Part shown: positions 1-6,251 of the stretch, one piece after another | Numbering within the stretch: position 1 is the first letter of the stretch | How the letters are laid out: the number at the start of each line of letters is the position of its first letter | From: Massilia frigida | GTDB lineage: Bacteria; Pseudomonadota; Gammaproteobacteria; Burkholderiales; Burkholderiaceae_D | Length of the DNA stretch: 64,000 bases | Assembly (NCBI RefSeq): GCF_011682175.1 | Contig: NZ_WHJG01000030.1 | Location: 1 to 64,000, forward strand | Reading direction: 5' to 3' | Notes under the pieces: generated by a model | What the model was told of the DNA's origin: nothing | The model's input: the letters and a program-made list of their open reading frames with translations, nothing else | Database searches by the model: none | Position numbers and translations under genes: made by a program

Positions 1-133
1 ATGCGCCCTGCATGCCGTCAAGGGTGCGCTACGCCGGCACGCGCGCAGCGCGCGCCGCCCTTGACCGCACTCCGGGACGGTAGAACCTCACAGCATAGCC
101 GATGTCAAGTTTCACCGGAAACGTCATTGGGCC
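1..133. repeat. Direct repeat copy A of the RHS cassette array
   Basis: GTCAAGGG at 17-24 pairs with CCCTTGAC at 58-65. Further on comes a block reading GTCAAGTTTCACCGGAAACG followed by TCATTGGGCCA. The same order of blocks, with point differences and a different middle, recurs at 883-1047. The copy begins at or before the window edge and overlaps the 3' end of the zinc-ribbon membrane gene. It is therefore the distal boundary of the second tip/small-membrane-protein cassette. Reading the two blocks as one repeat is my own comparison, not a database match. Confidence 0.6.
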
Positions 134-443
134 AAAATTTTGAAATTAATAAAAACCCTAGCAGCAAAAAGAAAGCGGCGCCAGTCCAGGAAATAACGTC
201 AATGCATGTAGAGTCGAAATTGCACATTGTCTTTAGCGGTTGGCTTCGTGGGGCTAAGCCCAACAGAATCGCTATGACCATTCCCCAAGTCACGCGGAGA
301 GTCCGGCCGACACCGTTTGCAGTCCATTTCAATTCGGTCGAACATTTTCGACAGACAAACGTTCTTTGAACTGAATAACGAGAAAAAAATATTTTCTTGG
401 GTACTGGAGTACCACAAACCGGACAATTTTCAGATTCCATCAT
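105..443 (-). CDS. Small zinc-ribbon membrane protein, candidate immunity protein of the displaced RHS tip
   Basis: The 112-residue product starts MMESENCPVCG. Two cysteine pairs (CPVC near residues 7-10 and CRKC about 25 residues later) look like a zinc ribbon. Two hydrophobic segments follow (around VTWGMVIAILLG and AAFFLLLGFLLIS). I chose the ATG at 443 because AAGG lies a few bases upstream and the protein then begins just before the zinc ribbon; ATG 440 is equally possible, and a longer upstream reading exists. It follows the displaced RHS tip (525-743) in the same orientation, where immunity genes of RHS/CDI systems sit. The base composition is AT-richer than the core genes. I do not recognise the family; the immunity role is inferred from position only. 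Confidence 0.55.
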   Translation of the reverse strand: MMESENCPVCGTPVPKKIFFSRYSVQRTFVCRKCSTELKWTANGVGRTLRVTWGMVIAILLGLAPRSQPLKTMCNFDSTCIDVISWTGAAFFLLLGFLLISKFWPNDVSGET

Positions 444-524
444 CTTAACCTTACTTAATCGTACATATCTCCGCTGCTTTGCATTGGTTGATACAAGCAG
501 CGTACCCAACACCGCACGCTGCGT

Positions 525-743
525 CTATGCGTTTCCCAGCAAAGTAACCCGCCCCCCACCAATCGCACCACCAATACCGGCGCCGATCGGGCCGCCAAAC
601 GATCCTATGCCTACTCCGGCAGCGGCTGTCCCGACCACCGCGCCGGTTCCGCCAACTTGCTCGCAGGTTTGCTTCGCGTCTTCACATGCCTGACAGTTTT
701 TCGGTGCCGGCTTTATGGGCTCAATGCCGTTTATAGTGGAACT
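525..743 (-). pseudogene. Displaced RHS C-terminal tip without a start codon
   Basis: Read on the minus strand, an open stretch between a TAA (744-746) and a TAG (525-527) encodes about 72 residues. It contains IEPIKPAPKNCQACEDAKQT and then a glycine-rich hydrophobic tail (GIGSFGGPIGAGIGGAIGGG). There is no ATG, GTG or TTG near its 5' end, so it cannot be expressed alone. It resembles in kind the intact tip of the RHS gene at 1396: paired cysteines, then a Gly/Ala-rich membrane-like segment, then an abrupt end. RHS loci are known to carry such orphan tips downstream of the main gene as recombination donors. That this stretch is one is an inference. Confidence 0.55.
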
Positions 744-882
744 TTACGCGGCGGCGGAAACGTGATGTTGCCAAACTGCGTGGATTCCCCACTCCTCGCC
801 CCGCCCCCAAGGGCGGGGAAGTCCTTGCCGCCGGACGGGCTCGCGGGCCGGATGCCAACCCCGCATCCAACCCTAAGCCCTT

Positions 883-1047
883 GAGCGTAAAGGATTTTTC
901 AGTGCCGTCAAGGGTTCGCTGCGCCGGGCTATGCCCGCCCTTGACTGCACCGAAAATGCCGTTGCGGTTGGGCCCCTCCAACCGACAACGCCCCCAGAAA
1001 GGGCAAAGTGCGGCTTGTCAACTTCCACTCGAAACGACATTGGGCCA
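883..1047. repeat. Direct repeat copy B of the RHS cassette array
   Basis: GTCAAGGG at 907-914 pairs with CCCTTGAC at 938-945 across an inner CGGGC/GCCCG stem. A block GTCAACTTCCACTCGAAACG with ACATTGGGCCA follows. This matches the order and spelling of the copy at 1-133. A shorter third fragment (TTGAATGTAAACGTATTTTCAG at about 1099-1120) echoes the lead-in of this copy (TTGAGCGTAAAGGATTTTTCAG at about 882-903). The rest of 744-1165 holds a GC-rich stretch with CCCCGCCC/GGGCGGGG pairs and no gene I can support. Confidence 0.6.
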
Positions 1048-1165
1048 CGTGCGGGTCGGTTGACGGGCACGGCGATTAAATCCACACCCTGTTAAGTCCT
1101 TGAATGTAAACGTATTTTCAGGGCGACCGGCACGGCACGCAGGACTTTTGTATAACGAGGTGAGT

Positions 1166-1390
1166 TTAAGGTGGAAACCGTCCCACTACCGCAATATATA
1201 TAAATAAGAAAAATCCAAGCGGCAACGTAAGAAGGATCGCTAGGGCCGTATCTAACGAAACCGTCCGAGATTCATTGAAAATGGAAATTATAAAATATAT
1301 CCATATCACTCCTCCAGCTATTCCAATGACCCCACAAACCAAGCGTTGAAAGACGCTAGCTTTATCTTTCTCCCTTTTCGTGCTGTTCAT
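1166..1390 (-). CDS. Two-TM small membrane protein directly after the RHS tip, candidate immunity protein
   Basis: The 74-residue product has a charged start (MNSTKREKDK) and two hydrophobic helices, around residues 17-37 (VCGVIGIAGGVIWIYFII) and 48-68 (ALAILLTLPLGFFLFIYIAV). The gene starts 5 nt after the RHS stop codon, and an AGGGA ribosome-binding site overlaps that stop, so the two are co-transcribed and probably coupled. Position and size are those of an RHS/CDI immunity gene. An integral-membrane immunity protein would suit a tip that acts on membranes. I recognise no family; the function is inferred from context. Confidence 0.65.
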   Translation of the reverse strand: MNSTKREKDKASVFQRLVCGVIGIAGGVIWIYFIISIFNESRTVSLDTALAILLTLPLGFFLFIYIAVVGRFPP

Positions 1391-1395
1391 ATTCC

Positions 1396-3630
1396 CTACT
1401 TATAAGCATCTGAACTGCGTTGACAGGCCATAGCGCAGCCGACTGCGGTACCAACTCCCCATGCACCCATTACTCCTCCTGCCCAAGTACACGCAGTAGT
1501 GGCTTTCTTGCTCGAGGCTGCTGCTACCCCAGCAATACTAACTGCTCCCCCTGTAGGGGTAGACCACCACGGGTTGAAGGCGCCAACGCACGCGTTCATG
1601 CATGATCCCCACGTCGGACTTCCAGGCGGCTTAGGTGCGTTCCAGCAGATTTCGCTATAACATTCCTCTCCGCATCGTTTTCCATCGCAGTACCAAGTAT
1701 CCTTGAGCCCAAATGGATCTTTTCTTGTAAGGGGTTTGTTCATAACGTAAGTGTACGTATTAATACCCCCTTTCAGTCCGATAGGATCTGACTGCACGTA
1801 ACGCCCCGTCTGCGGATCATAATCCCTATGGTAGTTGTAAAACAGGTTAGTAGTTCGATCATAATATTGACCTGGCATCCGCAAATTGAATGTAAAAGTG
1901 CCTAATCCGCTGAAATTTTCGGTCGGCGGTGTCAGTCCGAACGGATCGCCATTGTCCCAGCGCCAGACAATCTTGTTGTCGAGCGGGCGCGTGATCATCC
2001 GTGGCGTTCCCATATGATCCGGATGAATATGGAACACGTTAACCGCCGTGCTTTGGGCGGGTGCCGTTCCCGTCACTGTCTGGGTCAGCACTGCCACCGG
2101 CAGGTTGCCCAAATACACCGTCTCGCGCGACGCCTTGCCGTTGACATAGTTGTACTCACCTACCAACTGTCCTTGTTCATCATAGACGAATATGCCGCCA
2201 CCGTTAGTTTGGAAGACACGCTGATCCAAACCGTTGAACAGCTGGTGGGCGGTGACCGCACCATTCTGAAGGCGATACGGGCGGCCCCGTCCACTGTAAG
2301 TGACGACGAGCGTGCCATCAGTCGTCAGATCACCCGCGCCATTATAGGTATTCGTTTTGGCCGACCCAGGACCGGTGGTCGCGCTCAGCTTATTGCTGAG
2401 AGGGTCGACCGTGTTCGTGTAGCTGTTCGCCCCGAAGCCAGCCTTGATGCGGTTACCGGTAGCGTCATAAGCGTAGGTCTGAGTGGTGCCGTTGCCGCTG
2501 TAGCTGGTCAGGCGATCCAGTTCGTCGTAGCCGAAGGTCTGGTTCAGGCTGGCAGGGCTGGGCGCTGTACCGCTGCCGGTATGGGTGTACCCCTTGATGC
2601 GGCTGGCGGCATCGTAATTGACCGTGCGTACAACGCCGTTCGCCGAAGGGCTTCCCAAGGTATAGCTGCTGATCCGGCCATCGAGGTCGTAGGTGCGCAC
2701 ATGCGCGTACTGGTTTGCTGGAGCGCTATTGCCCCATGTCCAGCCGGTGGTGCCGCCAAACGGTGCGTAGGTGATATTGTTCAGCAAAACAATGTTTTCG
2801 GTGCTCGTGTCGGTACCGTTGGCTTTCACCGGGTTCAGCGTGATGCTGGCGACCTGGCCCACATCGTTGTAGCTATAGTTAACCCGGTTCCCGCTCGGGT
2901 AGGTCACGCTCGCTTGCCGGCCGGCCGCATCGTACGCATAGACAAGCGTATGCGTGTTGGTGTAGCTGCCCAAGCCGGTCGTGGTCTGGGCTTTGGTCGC
3001 GAGCCGCCCGAATGCGTCATAGGTATACGTCGTATAACCCGATTCATCCGTCATCCGCGTCATTTTCCCGGCCGCATTCGGGGTCGGGGTAGCACCGCCG
3101 TCATATTCGAACGTGGTGCCGACGGTGCCCGTATAGACGATCCGGGTCAGGCGGTTGAGCGCGTCGTAAGAATACGTATTGAGCATACCGCGACCGTCCG
3201 TGCTCGTCTTCAGGTTGCCGGCAGCGTCGTAGGTCGATTTTGTGAGGCCCGTGTCGGGGCTTCCCAGCTCGCTGCGGTTGCCCAGTCCATCAACAGAGTA
3301 ACGCGTCTCCAGGTTGCGCGGATCGGTGACCGTCGCCACTTGGCCGATGCCATCGTAACCGTACTTGATGGTCGGACGTGCGCCGTTAGTCTGCGGCTGC
3401 TCCACCTGCTTTACACGGCCGAGCGGGTCGTAGGTCTGGTTGGTCACACGGCCGAGCGGGTCGTTAACCTCCGTCAGGTTACCGCCCAGGTCGTACTTGT
3501 AGCCGGTGGCCGCTGCCGGCACCGACTGCGCTGAGGCGACGGTTCCGGTATAGGCACCCAGCAGTGGGGTATAAGTCATGACAACAATTAATGCGCCGGA
3601 CGTCAAACGGCTGAAGATACGGCGAGTCAT
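1396..3630 (-). CDS. RHS repeat-associated core protein with short variable tip (C-terminal half of a split RHS)
   Basis: The 744-residue product opens with a signal-peptide-like stretch (MTRRIFSRLTSGALIVVMTY, cleavage near ASAQ). Tandem YD repeats follow (YDPLGRV, YDAAGNL, YDALNRL, YDAFGRL). The RHS core has HPDHMGTPRM, then RDYDPQTGRYVQSDPIGL, and ends at DPFGL (residue 642), the usual autoproteolysis boundary. The remaining 102 residues are the variable tip: cysteine-rich (CDGKRCGEEC, CMNAC) and then Gly/Ala-rich and hydrophobic. I recognise no toxin fold in it. The start overlaps the stop of the upstream RHS gene by 4 nt (ATGA). With that gene the total is about 1,600 residues, the size of one ordinary RHS protein. 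Confidence 0.85.
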   Translation of the reverse strand: MTRRIFSRLTSGALIVVMTYTPLLGAYTGTVASAQSVPAAATGYKYDLGGNLTEVNDPLGRVTNQTYDPLGRVKQVEQPQTNGARPTIKYGYDGIGQVATVTDPRNLETRYSVDGLGNRSELGSPDTGLTKSTYDAAGNLKTSTDGRGMLNTYSYDALNRLTRIVYTGTVGTTFEYDGGATPTPNAAGKMTRMTDESGYTTYTYDAFGRLATKAQTTTGLGSYTNTHTLVYAYDAAGRQASVTYPSGNRVNYSYNDVGQVASITLNPVKANGTDTSTENIVLLNNITYAPFGGTTGWTWGNSAPANQYAHVRTYDLDGRISSYTLGSPSANGVVRTVNYDAASRIKGYTHTGSGTAPSPASLNQTFGYDELDRLTSYSGNGTTQTYAYDATGNRIKAGFGANSYTNTVDPLSNKLSATTGPGSAKTNTYNGAGDLTTDGTLVVTYSGRGRPYRLQNGAVTAHQLFNGLDQRVFQTNGGGIFVYDEQGQLVGEYNYVNGKASRETVYLGNLPVAVLTQTVTGTAPAQSTAVNVFHIHPDHMGTPRMITRPLDNKIVWRWDNGDPFGLTPPTENFSGLGTFTFNLRMPGQYYDRTTNLFYNYHRDYDPQTGRYVQSDPIGLKGGINTYTYVMNKPLTRKDPFGLKDTWYCDGKRCGEECYSEICWNAPKPPGSPTWGSCMNACVGAFNPWWSTPTGGAVSIAGVAAASSKKATTACTWAGGVMGAWGVGTAVGCAMACQRSSDAYK

Positions 3631-6251
3631 TGTGCAGCTCCGGTTTGGCTCGTCAGACGGCCGATAGTGTCATACGTACGGGTAATCTGGCGTGCAAGGT
3701 TACCCTTGGGGTCACGCACTTCTTCCTTGATCCTGTTGCCCGTGAGGTCGAGCGTGTACACGATGCTCTCGCCGCGGTTATTGGCGACGGAGGTGAGCCG
3801 GTGGGCCACGTCGTAGGTATAGGTCGTGACGCTGTTGTCGGGGAAGGTGACCGTCCTGACCTCGCCCGAAGGGGTGTAGTCGTACGTCGTGGTCTGCGTG
3901 GTCGTGCCGTTCGATACGGCTTGCGAAGCGACCCATCCGCGCGGGGTGTAGCTCAGCGTGGTCGTGACGCCGTTCGGCGCGCGAATCGTGCGAACATGGC
4001 CATGACCGTCGTAGTCCGAGAATGTCGTCTCCTGTTTGGCGGCGTTGGTTACCTTGACCAGATAGCCGGTGAGCGCATCATAGTCATACTTGGTGAGGTC
4101 GACGATATCGGTACGCGGGCCGGTCACGGTGTGCAATTGCCCCACATTGTTGTACGTGTATGCCCATTTCCGGGCGCTGCCGGTCAACGGCGCGTTCAAT
4201 CCTTGCGCACCCGTCAGGTCAGTCGTGGCCTGCTCGGTCTTGGTGAGAACATTGCCGGACGCGTCGTATTCGTATTTCGTAACACGCTTGGGTTCGGCGA
4301 TGGCTTCCGGCTGCGTGAATTGCGCGTGCCATTTGGTCGTGGTTTTACGCATTGGCAACGCGAGCGTTTGCGCGCTCAGCAGCGAGGTGCAAGTGGCCGT
4401 CGAAACGCCTTCAATCCGTGTCGTTTCAAGATTGCGTGCGGTATCGTATGCGAAGCAGCTGTAGTTGCTGTTGAAATCCTTCGTCATCGTGACGTTACCG
4501 GTGGTGTCATACACACGTTCGGCAATCGTGCCGCATTCGACGCACGGCGCGCTAATAGCCGTCAGTTGGGCAATACCTAGCATATATTTCTTACTGTAGG
4601 TACGCTCCGTCGTCCGCACATTCTCGGCCGGGCCGACATAATGGGTTACTGTTGCAGGTGTGTCTTTACCATCGACATAGGCAACCGTTACCTTTTCAAT
4701 GCCCTCGCCCAGTTGCGACGAAGTCGCCCGGCCCCCACAGTCATACGTCCAGTTGATGTGGCGCTGGTCGTTTTCATCAACCAAACCGGTCATCATATTG
4801 GAAAACACCTCGTGACCGAAACCATTTCCAATGACCGCCCAACGAAGATCGCACGCCTTGCCGTTATTAATTTTACTTGCTTCATTGTAAAAATAAGTTT
4901 GACTTTTACCATCGGGATAAATCACCTTGGTCAGATTGTTTGCCCTGCACGCTACGGTCTTTTCATTGCCGGGAACGCAGCCGCCCGATGGGCCATCATA
5001 TTCGTAAAGATAAGATTGCTTCGCCGGATCGATCATTTCGCCAACCCGCCCTCCCGCATCGTATCGGAACTGAAGCTGGAGGCCCCAATGGTTGGTAACA
5101 CACAGCAAGCGACGTGCTGGGAGAACGGCACCAGGATGGGCGTTCGCGCATTCAGGCGCGCTAGCGGGAAAACGACTGACTGCGGTGTCGTTGCTGACGC
5201 CGTCACTGTAGGTCAATTTTTTTGTCAACCCAGTGCGCTCGGTGATCGAAAGCAGCAGTCCAGATTTGTCAAACCGTTCGGTACTGTCGTTTTTGGCGTT
5301 GTAAAGAACCCATTCCTGGACAGCGAGATTGTCCGGCGACATGACTGCCGAGAGCTTGTCGCTTACGTCTGCAGTGCTTTTATAAGCGCCGGAGGTGTCA
5401 CGCGTGAAAACAAATCGCTTGCCATCTGAACTCTTGATTGCCATCTGCTGAGGAATTGGATTGACGTTATCCACATAGAAGCTGCAATCGACCAGACCAA
5501 AGGTAAATTTCCAGCATTTGTACATCGTTTGCTCGCTACGCGGCTCTTCTGCCTTGAGCGATTTATTGTAGGAGTGCGTCCACCTAACGCCGAATCCCCT
5601 GACAGAAAACGGGTCCGTCAAGGTTAGAGAACTATTATAAATACGCTCCAGCGTCAGATCACTTGACGATTTGGGCGCTTGATAGTCGGTGATCGCATGC
5701 CACATATTCCCGTTAACCGGAGTGATCGGTTGGCCGACACACCCCTTGCAATTTTGCCCTACATTACCGCCATTTGCGCCCTGATTCTCAAAAAACTCAC
5801 CGCTTTCACACTTGTCAGTCGGTGGATAATAACGCAAATTGTGTATCTCAAGACACACTAGCCGGCTACGCATCATTTCCTCGCCATAGCCAGCTTTCCT
5901 CACACACTTTCCCTCAACATTCATAAAACCTGGATCGAGTGATCTGGTCTTACCTTCCGAGCTAACGATTCCACCAATAGAGCTTCGATGTGCCCATGCG
6001 GAACCTGCGCCCCACGCATAAGGACAGGCAGCATTTTTATTTGCTTCCGCGAGGCGAAGATCCCATGCGGGTGCCTCATCTGAAAATATGTTTTTGGTTG
6101 AAATATAATATTTGTACGGCCCAACATAATTCTTTATTTGGGCGTGTGCACTGGCTGGAAAATAAAAAAACAGGACCCCGATGCATCCGTAAAAAAATCG
6201 ACGCATCAGAGTTCGCGCGTCATACGACACGCCATCAAGAGAGAAAAGCAT
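3627..6251 (-). CDS. RHS protein with DUF6531 domain (N-terminal half of a split RHS)
   Basis: The 874-residue product carries a signal peptide (MRRFFYGCIGVLFFYFPASA, cleaved near AHAQ). A cysteine-containing N-terminal region precedes a DUF6531-type segment (PVNGNMWHAITDYQ, then LTLERIYNS and GVRWTHSYN). YD repeats fill the rest to the end (YEYDASGNV, YTYNNVGQLH, YDYTPSGEVR, YDTIGRL). It has no RHS core and no tip; those are in the next gene, whose ATG overlaps this stop. The start at 6251 has GGGA upstream. An internal ATG at 6206 would begin exactly at the signal peptide and is a serious alternative. AT content is higher than in neighbouring core genes, which suggests acquisition by transfer. 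Confidence 0.85.
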   Translation of the reverse strand: MLFSLDGVSYDARTLMRRFFYGCIGVLFFYFPASAHAQIKNYVGPYKYYISTKNIFSDEAPAWDLRLAEANKNAACPYAWGAGSAWAHRSSIGGIVSSEGKTRSLDPGFMNVEGKCVRKAGYGEEMMRSRLVCLEIHNLRYYPPTDKCESGEFFENQGANGGNVGQNCKGCVGQPITPVNGNMWHAITDYQAPKSSSDLTLERIYNSSLTLTDPFSVRGFGVRWTHSYNKSLKAEEPRSEQTMYKCWKFTFGLVDCSFYVDNVNPIPQQMAIKSSDGKRFVFTRDTSGAYKSTADVSDKLSAVMSPDNLAVQEWVLYNAKNDSTERFDKSGLLLSITERTGLTKKLTYSDGVSNDTAVSRFPASAPECANAHPGAVLPARRLLCVTNHWGLQLQFRYDAGGRVGEMIDPAKQSYLYEYDGPSGGCVPGNEKTVACRANNLTKVIYPDGKSQTYFYNEASKINNGKACDLRWAVIGNGFGHEVFSNMMTGLVDENDQRHINWTYDCGGRATSSQLGEGIEKVTVAYVDGKDTPATVTHYVGPAENVRTTERTYSKKYMLGIAQLTAISAPCVECGTIAERVYDTTGNVTMTKDFNSNYSCFAYDTARNLETTRIEGVSTATCTSLLSAQTLALPMRKTTTKWHAQFTQPEAIAEPKRVTKYEYDASGNVLTKTEQATTDLTGAQGLNAPLTGSARKWAYTYNNVGQLHTVTGPRTDIVDLTKYDYDALTGYLVKVTNAAKQETTFSDYDGHGHVRTIRAPNGVTTTLSYTPRGWVASQAVSNGTTTQTTTYDYTPSGEVRTVTFPDNSVTTYTYDVAHRLTSVANNRGESIVYTLDLTGNRIKEEVRDPKGNLARQITRTYDTIGRLTSQTGAAQ

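Follow-up and report, generated by a model that had tools for sequence, protein, structure and literature searches.

How polymorphic toxins obtain new tips is an old question, and the start of one Massilia frigida contig (NZ_WHJG01000030.1, contig C179 of genome G000) poses it in a concrete form. The window, which is the first 64 kb of this contig, begins with the 3' part of an rhs locus. Read on the minus strand, the rhs gene is followed by a small open reading frame (ORF), a repeat (B), a startless tip-like frame, a second small ORF (the Zn-ribbon ORF) and, at the contig edge, a second repeat (A). A sequence-only reading had taken this order for two cassettes of tip, membrane protein and closing repeat, with the repeats as the substrate for swapping the tip of the expressed gene. 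Is this how the tip changes? ORF reading bore out both the tip-bearing rhs gene, which runs to 1396 (minus strand), and the startless frame at 525-743 (minus strand). The region 1396-6251 encodes the YD/RHS repeats, Rhs-associated core and variable C terminus of an Rhs polymorphic toxin. The core ends at residue 642 of the second rhs ORF (744 residues). Paralogues at C251, C239 and C215 have residues 1-645 in common with it at 85-87% and carry different tips beyond, so the window rhs belongs to a polymorphic-toxin family. We found that A and B are parts of ISL3-type mobile elements and that tips at this locus change without them. The joint explanation that fits best, and that we hold to be very probable, is a chromosomal rhs polymorphic-toxin locus in which the block between the Rhs core end and a fixed point downstream, some 40-50 bp before the listed start of a DUF2889-like ORF, is hypervariable.

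Repeats A and B are parts of ISL3-type elements

When the own genome was searched with positions 1-1710, seven other places matched the first ~133 bases (98-100%), each of them within about 40 bases of a contig end, and there were shorter matches as well. Aligned, the copies have one sharp outer edge, GGGCC, with unique DNA outside. We counted nine such right ends and 12 left ends in the genome; the left ends bear a matching terminal repeat, and the DNA inside it is common to the six left ends compared. At C176:228-983 and C200:228-977, a PF01610 (DDE_Tnp_ISL3) transposase scored over its cut-off and is followed by the left terminal repeat. Eight of the nine right ends pair with a left end through an identical 8-bp duplication, the window and contig C238 among them; the right end on C155 and the left ends on C200, C239, C251 and C244 have no partner. 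In the relative G012, we found five complete copies of 1570-1571 bp with imperfect terminal inverted repeats at both ends, three of which have exact target duplications. Taken together, the sharp-edged right ends, the transposase at left ends, the 8-bp pairing and the complete copies in G012 show directly that repeat A is the transposase-distal end of an ISL3-family insertion sequence. The element runs off the contig start, so the transposase of this copy is not readable in the window. Apparently a complete insertion sequence, it interrupts the Zn-ribbon ORF at its 3' end; the last codons of this ORF (105-133) are insertion-sequence DNA.

The exact hairpin pattern of repeat A occurs at ten places in the genome, comprising eight insertion-sequence ends, one miniature element in the window and one site on C215. 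From this distribution we rejected both a repetitive extragenic palindromic (REP)-like element and an rhs-specific terminator. We also observed ISL3 copies within ~1.3 kb of an rhs gene at four (C179, C251, C239 and C217) of up to 13 sites (eight pairs plus five unpaired ends), and on C251 the element lies about 36 bp past the tip stop codon. By simple count, this proximity seems commoner than we would expect, and it is also seen in G012 (L185).

The flank of repeat A, AAAATTTT, matches the flank of a left end on C238 exactly, which makes the DNA past position 1 readable. Beyond the ISL3 element, the DNA of C238 is unshared for about 290 bp and then encodes a DUF2889-like ORF, sucC, sucD, an FHA-type protein and pilins (names taken from reading the translations). 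In Massilia rubra (L096), the same genes directly follow rhs, 93% identical over 3.6 kb, which supports the window/C238 junction. An extension to the left of position 1 had been proposed as a check for further units of tip, protein and repeat; we recognised no additional tip unit on C238.

Repeat B is likewise part of a mobile element. Positions 717-1047 were matched as a single block, at 81%, in the relatives G010 and G019. The element is short, has terminal repeats from 718 and to 1046 and contains no transposase, and its counterpart in G010 sits in a perfect target duplication, with CGTTTTCG on either side. Repeat B is thus part of an ISL3-type miniature element. The proposed relationship between A and B held up: their local alignment scored 46, compared with a maximum of 28 in 1000 dinucleotide shuffles, and the likeness resides in the hairpin arms (25 nt at 92% and 16 nt at 94%) and a 32-nt block at 84%. 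The two are alike because both are ISL3-type ends. They do not close cassettes, A being an insertion-sequence end and B a portion of the element at 718-1046.

Positions 1051-1162 consist of the ends of two further mobile elements, which recur in G002, G007, G012, G015 and the own genome. We fetched 20 regions from relatives for these repeats, and a match to this Rhs at E<=1e-6 was present in none of them. Among copies of the second element (L084, L085, L089, L077 and L049), the hairpin stem varies on both sides, AAGTCCT/AGGACTT versus AACTCC/GGAGTT. We rejected an attC (integron) reading of this hairpin, since its outer GTT/AAC order, judged by eye, is inverted relative to attC, and other genomes contain the sequence at places not associated with this Rhs.

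The variable block and its candidate relic tip

Relatives yielded 28 rhs matches (34 rows less six from the own genome), and from these we took ten downstream regions. Three of the ten (G007, G002 and G014) continue with the DUF2889-like gene, whose product is 93-96% identical over most of the protein. Homology to C238 resumes in each of these genomes at base 421-432 (reverse strand), which is some 40-50 bp ahead of the listed ORF start; from the core end to this point the DNA differs, each genome having its own tip and following ORF. ISL3 ends, the hairpin and the miniature element are all absent from these three loci; a complete ISL3 copy lies downstream of rhs in one of the ten regions (G012). 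That relatives carry different tips and no repeats indicates that tips change at this locus without repeats. The tip block would be replaced between the conserved core end and the conserved downstream flank, presumably by recombination within these two shared sequences. In the window, the block comprises an intact tip, a small membrane protein and a probable truncated relic of a second tip/partner pair, and it has then gained mobile DNA: two element-end relics, the 329-bp miniature element and the ISL3 insertion sequence.

The comparison bears directly on the idea that recombination between A and B, as repeats at module ends, places a stored tip on the expressed rhs. Although the two align beyond chance, and displaced tips at C202 and C215 also have a B-like hairpin in front of them, both are transposon ends, neither lies at the core/tip border or at the far border of the variable block, and the orthologous loci with other tips lack them. 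The parts in which they resemble each other are also no longer than 32 nt (84%) and 25 nt (92%), and repeats so short and diverged are a poor substrate for homologous exchange. We therefore consider this idea very improbable. A comparison of related genomes for swaps bounded by the repeat had been proposed as a check, and the three relatives at the same locus show other tips with no repeats. The model of repeat-bounded tip cassettes, tempting but wrong, is thus removed. When repeats lie at contig ends, the first thing to test is whether they are ends of insertion sequences. The four-genome comparison fixes the borders of the variable block that any swap mechanism must explain.

Several observations weigh against parts of our explanation. 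The window/C238 junction rests on an 8-bp match and synteny, no read crossing it, and C174/C178 have a duplication that is just a single base different from this one. Two of the five complete copies in G012 have no exact duplication. The miniature element in the window lacks a matching duplication, with GCTTTATG on one side and ACGTGCGG on the other, and the relic frame matches only itself among 294 genomes of the family, with no tip fused to a full rhs among the matches.

The missing duplication indicates that the junction at the miniature element has been rearranged or has decayed. One possible explanation is that the element recombined with another copy and so placed the relic tip beside the gene for the two-stretch membrane protein, in which case mobile homology would have shaped one junction. 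The contrast between the window copy, without a target duplication, and the G010 copy, with a perfect one, is consistent with such an event. It is a single case, though, and the flank could have been lost in other ways, its right side bordering the relic at 1051-1094. We consider this recombination unlikely.

With no homologue for the relic frame, its nature as a tip is deduced from place and composition, and it could instead be a chance frame in intergenic DNA. Besides matching only itself, it has no core overlap, and its G+C content by codon position (0.68/0.62/0.56) departs from that of the rhs core (0.54/0.50/0.70). The intact tip (0.50/0.70/0.48) is also unlike the core, however, and the frame lies where a relative, G014, keeps a displaced tip. 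It is followed by a small CxxC ORF, and its Cys-rich start and Gly-rich tail, compared by eye, are common to the C179 and C215 tips. We take the chance-frame possibility seriously while leaning against it. In G014 (L184), read by eye, the displaced tip at 1648-2154 has the Rhs core end YNYYRDYDPQTGRYVQSDPIGL in front of it, with 49 matched core residues, and is followed by a hydrophobic-looking ORF (2042-2518) and by a possible tip piece without core (2530-2916). This displaced tip at the same locus makes one in the window, together with a partner, plausible, as the sequence-only reading had proposed, although the window pair shows neither a core overlap nor a homologue. A core overlap with the DPxGL motif was not found before the relic frame, where the miniature element starts at 718, and the Rhs core end matches the 64-kb window only in the rhs gene itself. 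The frame has no translation start, and its first codons lie within the miniature element. The second 'cassette' appears to be damaged: the miniature element sits where the core overlap would be expected, and the end of the partner ORF has been lost to ISL3. As a relic tip, the frame remains plausible but unproven; with the Zn-ribbon ORF, it probably represents the truncated relic of a second tip/partner pair.

Both small proteins had been described as spanning the membrane twice. The product of 1166-1390 does have two hydrophobic stretches. The ORF at 105-443 (minus strand) encodes CxxC pairs and, in a 19-residue Kyte-Doolittle scan, a single stretch over 1.6 (residues 79-102), which does not bear out two membrane spans for this protein. 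Neither small ORF scored above curated cut-offs in Pfam or NCBIfam, neither matched in PADLOC, and the Zn-ribbon ORF had no match in 16 other genomes of the genus. The two proteins may be immunity proteins. Table 1 lists the features of the locus. Elsewhere in the genome, the rhs search also found a single open frame of 10,955 codons (G000:C66, about 23000-48000) in which the YD-repeat part of the query matched many times.

Table 1. Annotated features at the rhs end of the window
Feature	Position	Strand	Basis
rhs, first ORF (DUF6531 and YD repeats), 874 residues	3627..6251	-	ORF list, family search
rhs, second ORF (YD repeats, Rhs-associated core, tip), 744 residues	1396..3630	-	ORF list, family search
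Variable tip of rhs, past core residue 642	1396..1704	-	Paralogue comparison
74-residue protein, two hydrophobic stretches; candidate for immunity to the rhs tip	1166..1390	-	ORF list, hydrophobicity scan
Terminal relic of further mobile element with hairpin, outer end TATAACGAGGTG	1090..1162		Copies in G002, G007, G012 and own C217
Terminal relic of another mobile element, outer end CCCTGTTA	1051..1094		Five other copies compared (own C231 and relative genomes)
329-bp ISL3-type miniature inverted-repeat element, with repeat B as the right part	718..1046		Near-full-length counterparts (81%) in G010 and G019
Hairpin GTCAAGGG...CCCTTGAC within the miniature element	907..945		Pattern search
Gly-rich frame without a start; candidate relic Rhs tip that retains no Rhs core overlap	528..716	-	Open frame 525-743
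Small CxxC ORF, one clear hydrophobic stretch, original 3' end interrupted; candidate partner of relic tip	105..443	-	ORF list, hydrophobicity scan
8-bp target-site duplication AAAATTTT, common to the left end on C238	134..141		Exact match
Transposase-distal (right) end of 1571-bp ISL3-family insertion sequence (repeat A); remainder beyond contig start	1..133	-	Genome-wide copies, PF01610, complete copies in G012

Recombinase modules at other rhs genes

C202 and C215 both carry a 300-bp segment, E, that contains the hairpin of repeat B and stops at the codons GRYIQSDPI(G/S)L, which belong to displaced Rhs tips. On C215, E comes after genes for a tyrosine recombinase (PF00589) and a CHC2/toprim primase, and a second such module occupies C215:118-4801. 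The C215 array (L046, G000:C215:8000-27252, and L147, C215:1-8100) consists of an rhs with its tip and a TPR (tetratricopeptide repeat)-like partner, a module of recombinase, primase and helix-turn-helix (HTH) genes, a displaced tip with its partner, and the second module. A third tip, at C202 (L022), appears to join this array across a contig break. GATACG-rich arrays at L046 21-96 and 10094-10169, 79% alike, lie near both ends of the stretch containing one of the C215 modules.

The recombinase had 25 matches at E<=1e-60 in 13 of the 294 genomes, including the own genome, and 23 of them fell in the regions that we fetched. We oriented ten recombinase loci, chosen because Rhs sequence lay nearby. 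Five (L046, L135, L137, L140 and L142, the last four from relatives of other genera) have an Rhs core-end fragment 874-1197 bases past the recombinase gene on the same strand; at three (L136, L138 and L143) the search found none past the recombinase, and L141 and L147 are cut off by a contig end too early to judge. The joining point varies by lineage, being YNYYRDYDP, GRYIQSDP or GGINTY. At L140, two joins follow one another, their upstream sequences nearly identical. A tip/partner pair that in G031 (L142) is fused to rhs has a displaced counterpart behind a module in G306 (L137), with identities of 71% over 38 residues for the tip and 52% over 187 for the partner.

At L128-L134, L139 and L144-L146, we found no Rhs core end. 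Homologous modules are present at L128-L130 (G203), L131-L132 (G311), L133 (G092), L139, L144 and L146, several of them in tandem 8-19 kb apart. By eye, other, non-Rhs Gly-rich C-terminal pieces, mostly with no Pfam match, adjoin the module at several loci of this set, with motifs such as GPNAFGNALGNS and small ORFs following. Possibly, the same trick operates at other polymorphic toxins.

The module data suggest integrating tip cassettes. We propose, as a reading that falls just short of probable, that Rhs tips here and in relatives are changed not by repeats but by self-integrating cassettes that carry a tyrosine recombinase, a CHC2/toprim primase and an HTH regulator, with a tip/partner pair at one end. 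Such a cassette would integrate at a fixed position within the conserved end of the Rhs core, giving the resident gene a new tip and pushing the old tip/partner pair behind the module. Repeated integration would build tandem arrays such as the one at C215/C202, apparently with three tips; the window locus would then be such a site without a module. The relic tip in the window might itself be a remnant of a recombinase-module array, given that the own genome contains one, yet the 64-kb window has no integrase, primase or HTH homologue and only the hairpin of segment E matches it, which makes such an origin improbable. Literature listings on rhs or polymorphic toxins with integrase, recombinase or primase contained no description of a module of this kind. 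The integrating-cassette proposal offers a concrete, testable answer to how polymorphic toxins come by new tips.

Comparison with known systems

The element at the contig start agrees with the ISL3 family (PF01610) in its transposase family, GGCTC/GGCCC terminal inverted repeats, 8-bp duplications and length of 1571 bp, and nothing notable sets it apart; its transposase-distal end has a strong GTCAAGGG hairpin. The 329-bp element resembles bacterial miniature inverted-repeat elements in having both terminal repeats and no transposase, with a perfect duplication in a relative, and differs in that the window copy has no duplication. A literature listing for the ISL3 family, miniature inverted-repeat elements and Massilia contained nothing on this subject.

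Like the orphan rhs-CT/rhsI and cdiA-CT/cdiI pairs described in two studies (PMC3150448, PMC3967940), the window has a startless tip fragment and a small partner ORF downstream of a full gene. The main and orphan rhs of Salmonella are reported to have 522 bp in common at 95% and to recombine there (PMC3967940); the window relic is unlike that orphan in having no core overlap and no homologue found. Disruption of orphan tips by insertion sequences is reported at contact-dependent inhibition (CDI) loci (PMC3150448). In Burkholderia thailandensis, the CDI genes reside on a megacircle transposon flanked by IS2 insertion sequences (PMC6350997). Insertion sequences adjoin a polymorphic-toxin locus there as in the window, but in B. 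thailandensis a pair of them moves the whole locus, whereas in the window a single ISL3 copy has inserted into it.

Site-specific recombination has been connected with polymorphic toxins before: dif sites flank vgrG clusters in Neisseria subflava (PMC10210955), and XerC/D genes lie beside polyimmunity loci (PMC3482391). The relevant passages of these two papers do not describe a recombinase module that joins a displaced tip inside an Rhs core end. What these cases have in common with the C215/C202 modules, as distinct from the window, is that both link site-specific recombination to polymorphic toxin loci.

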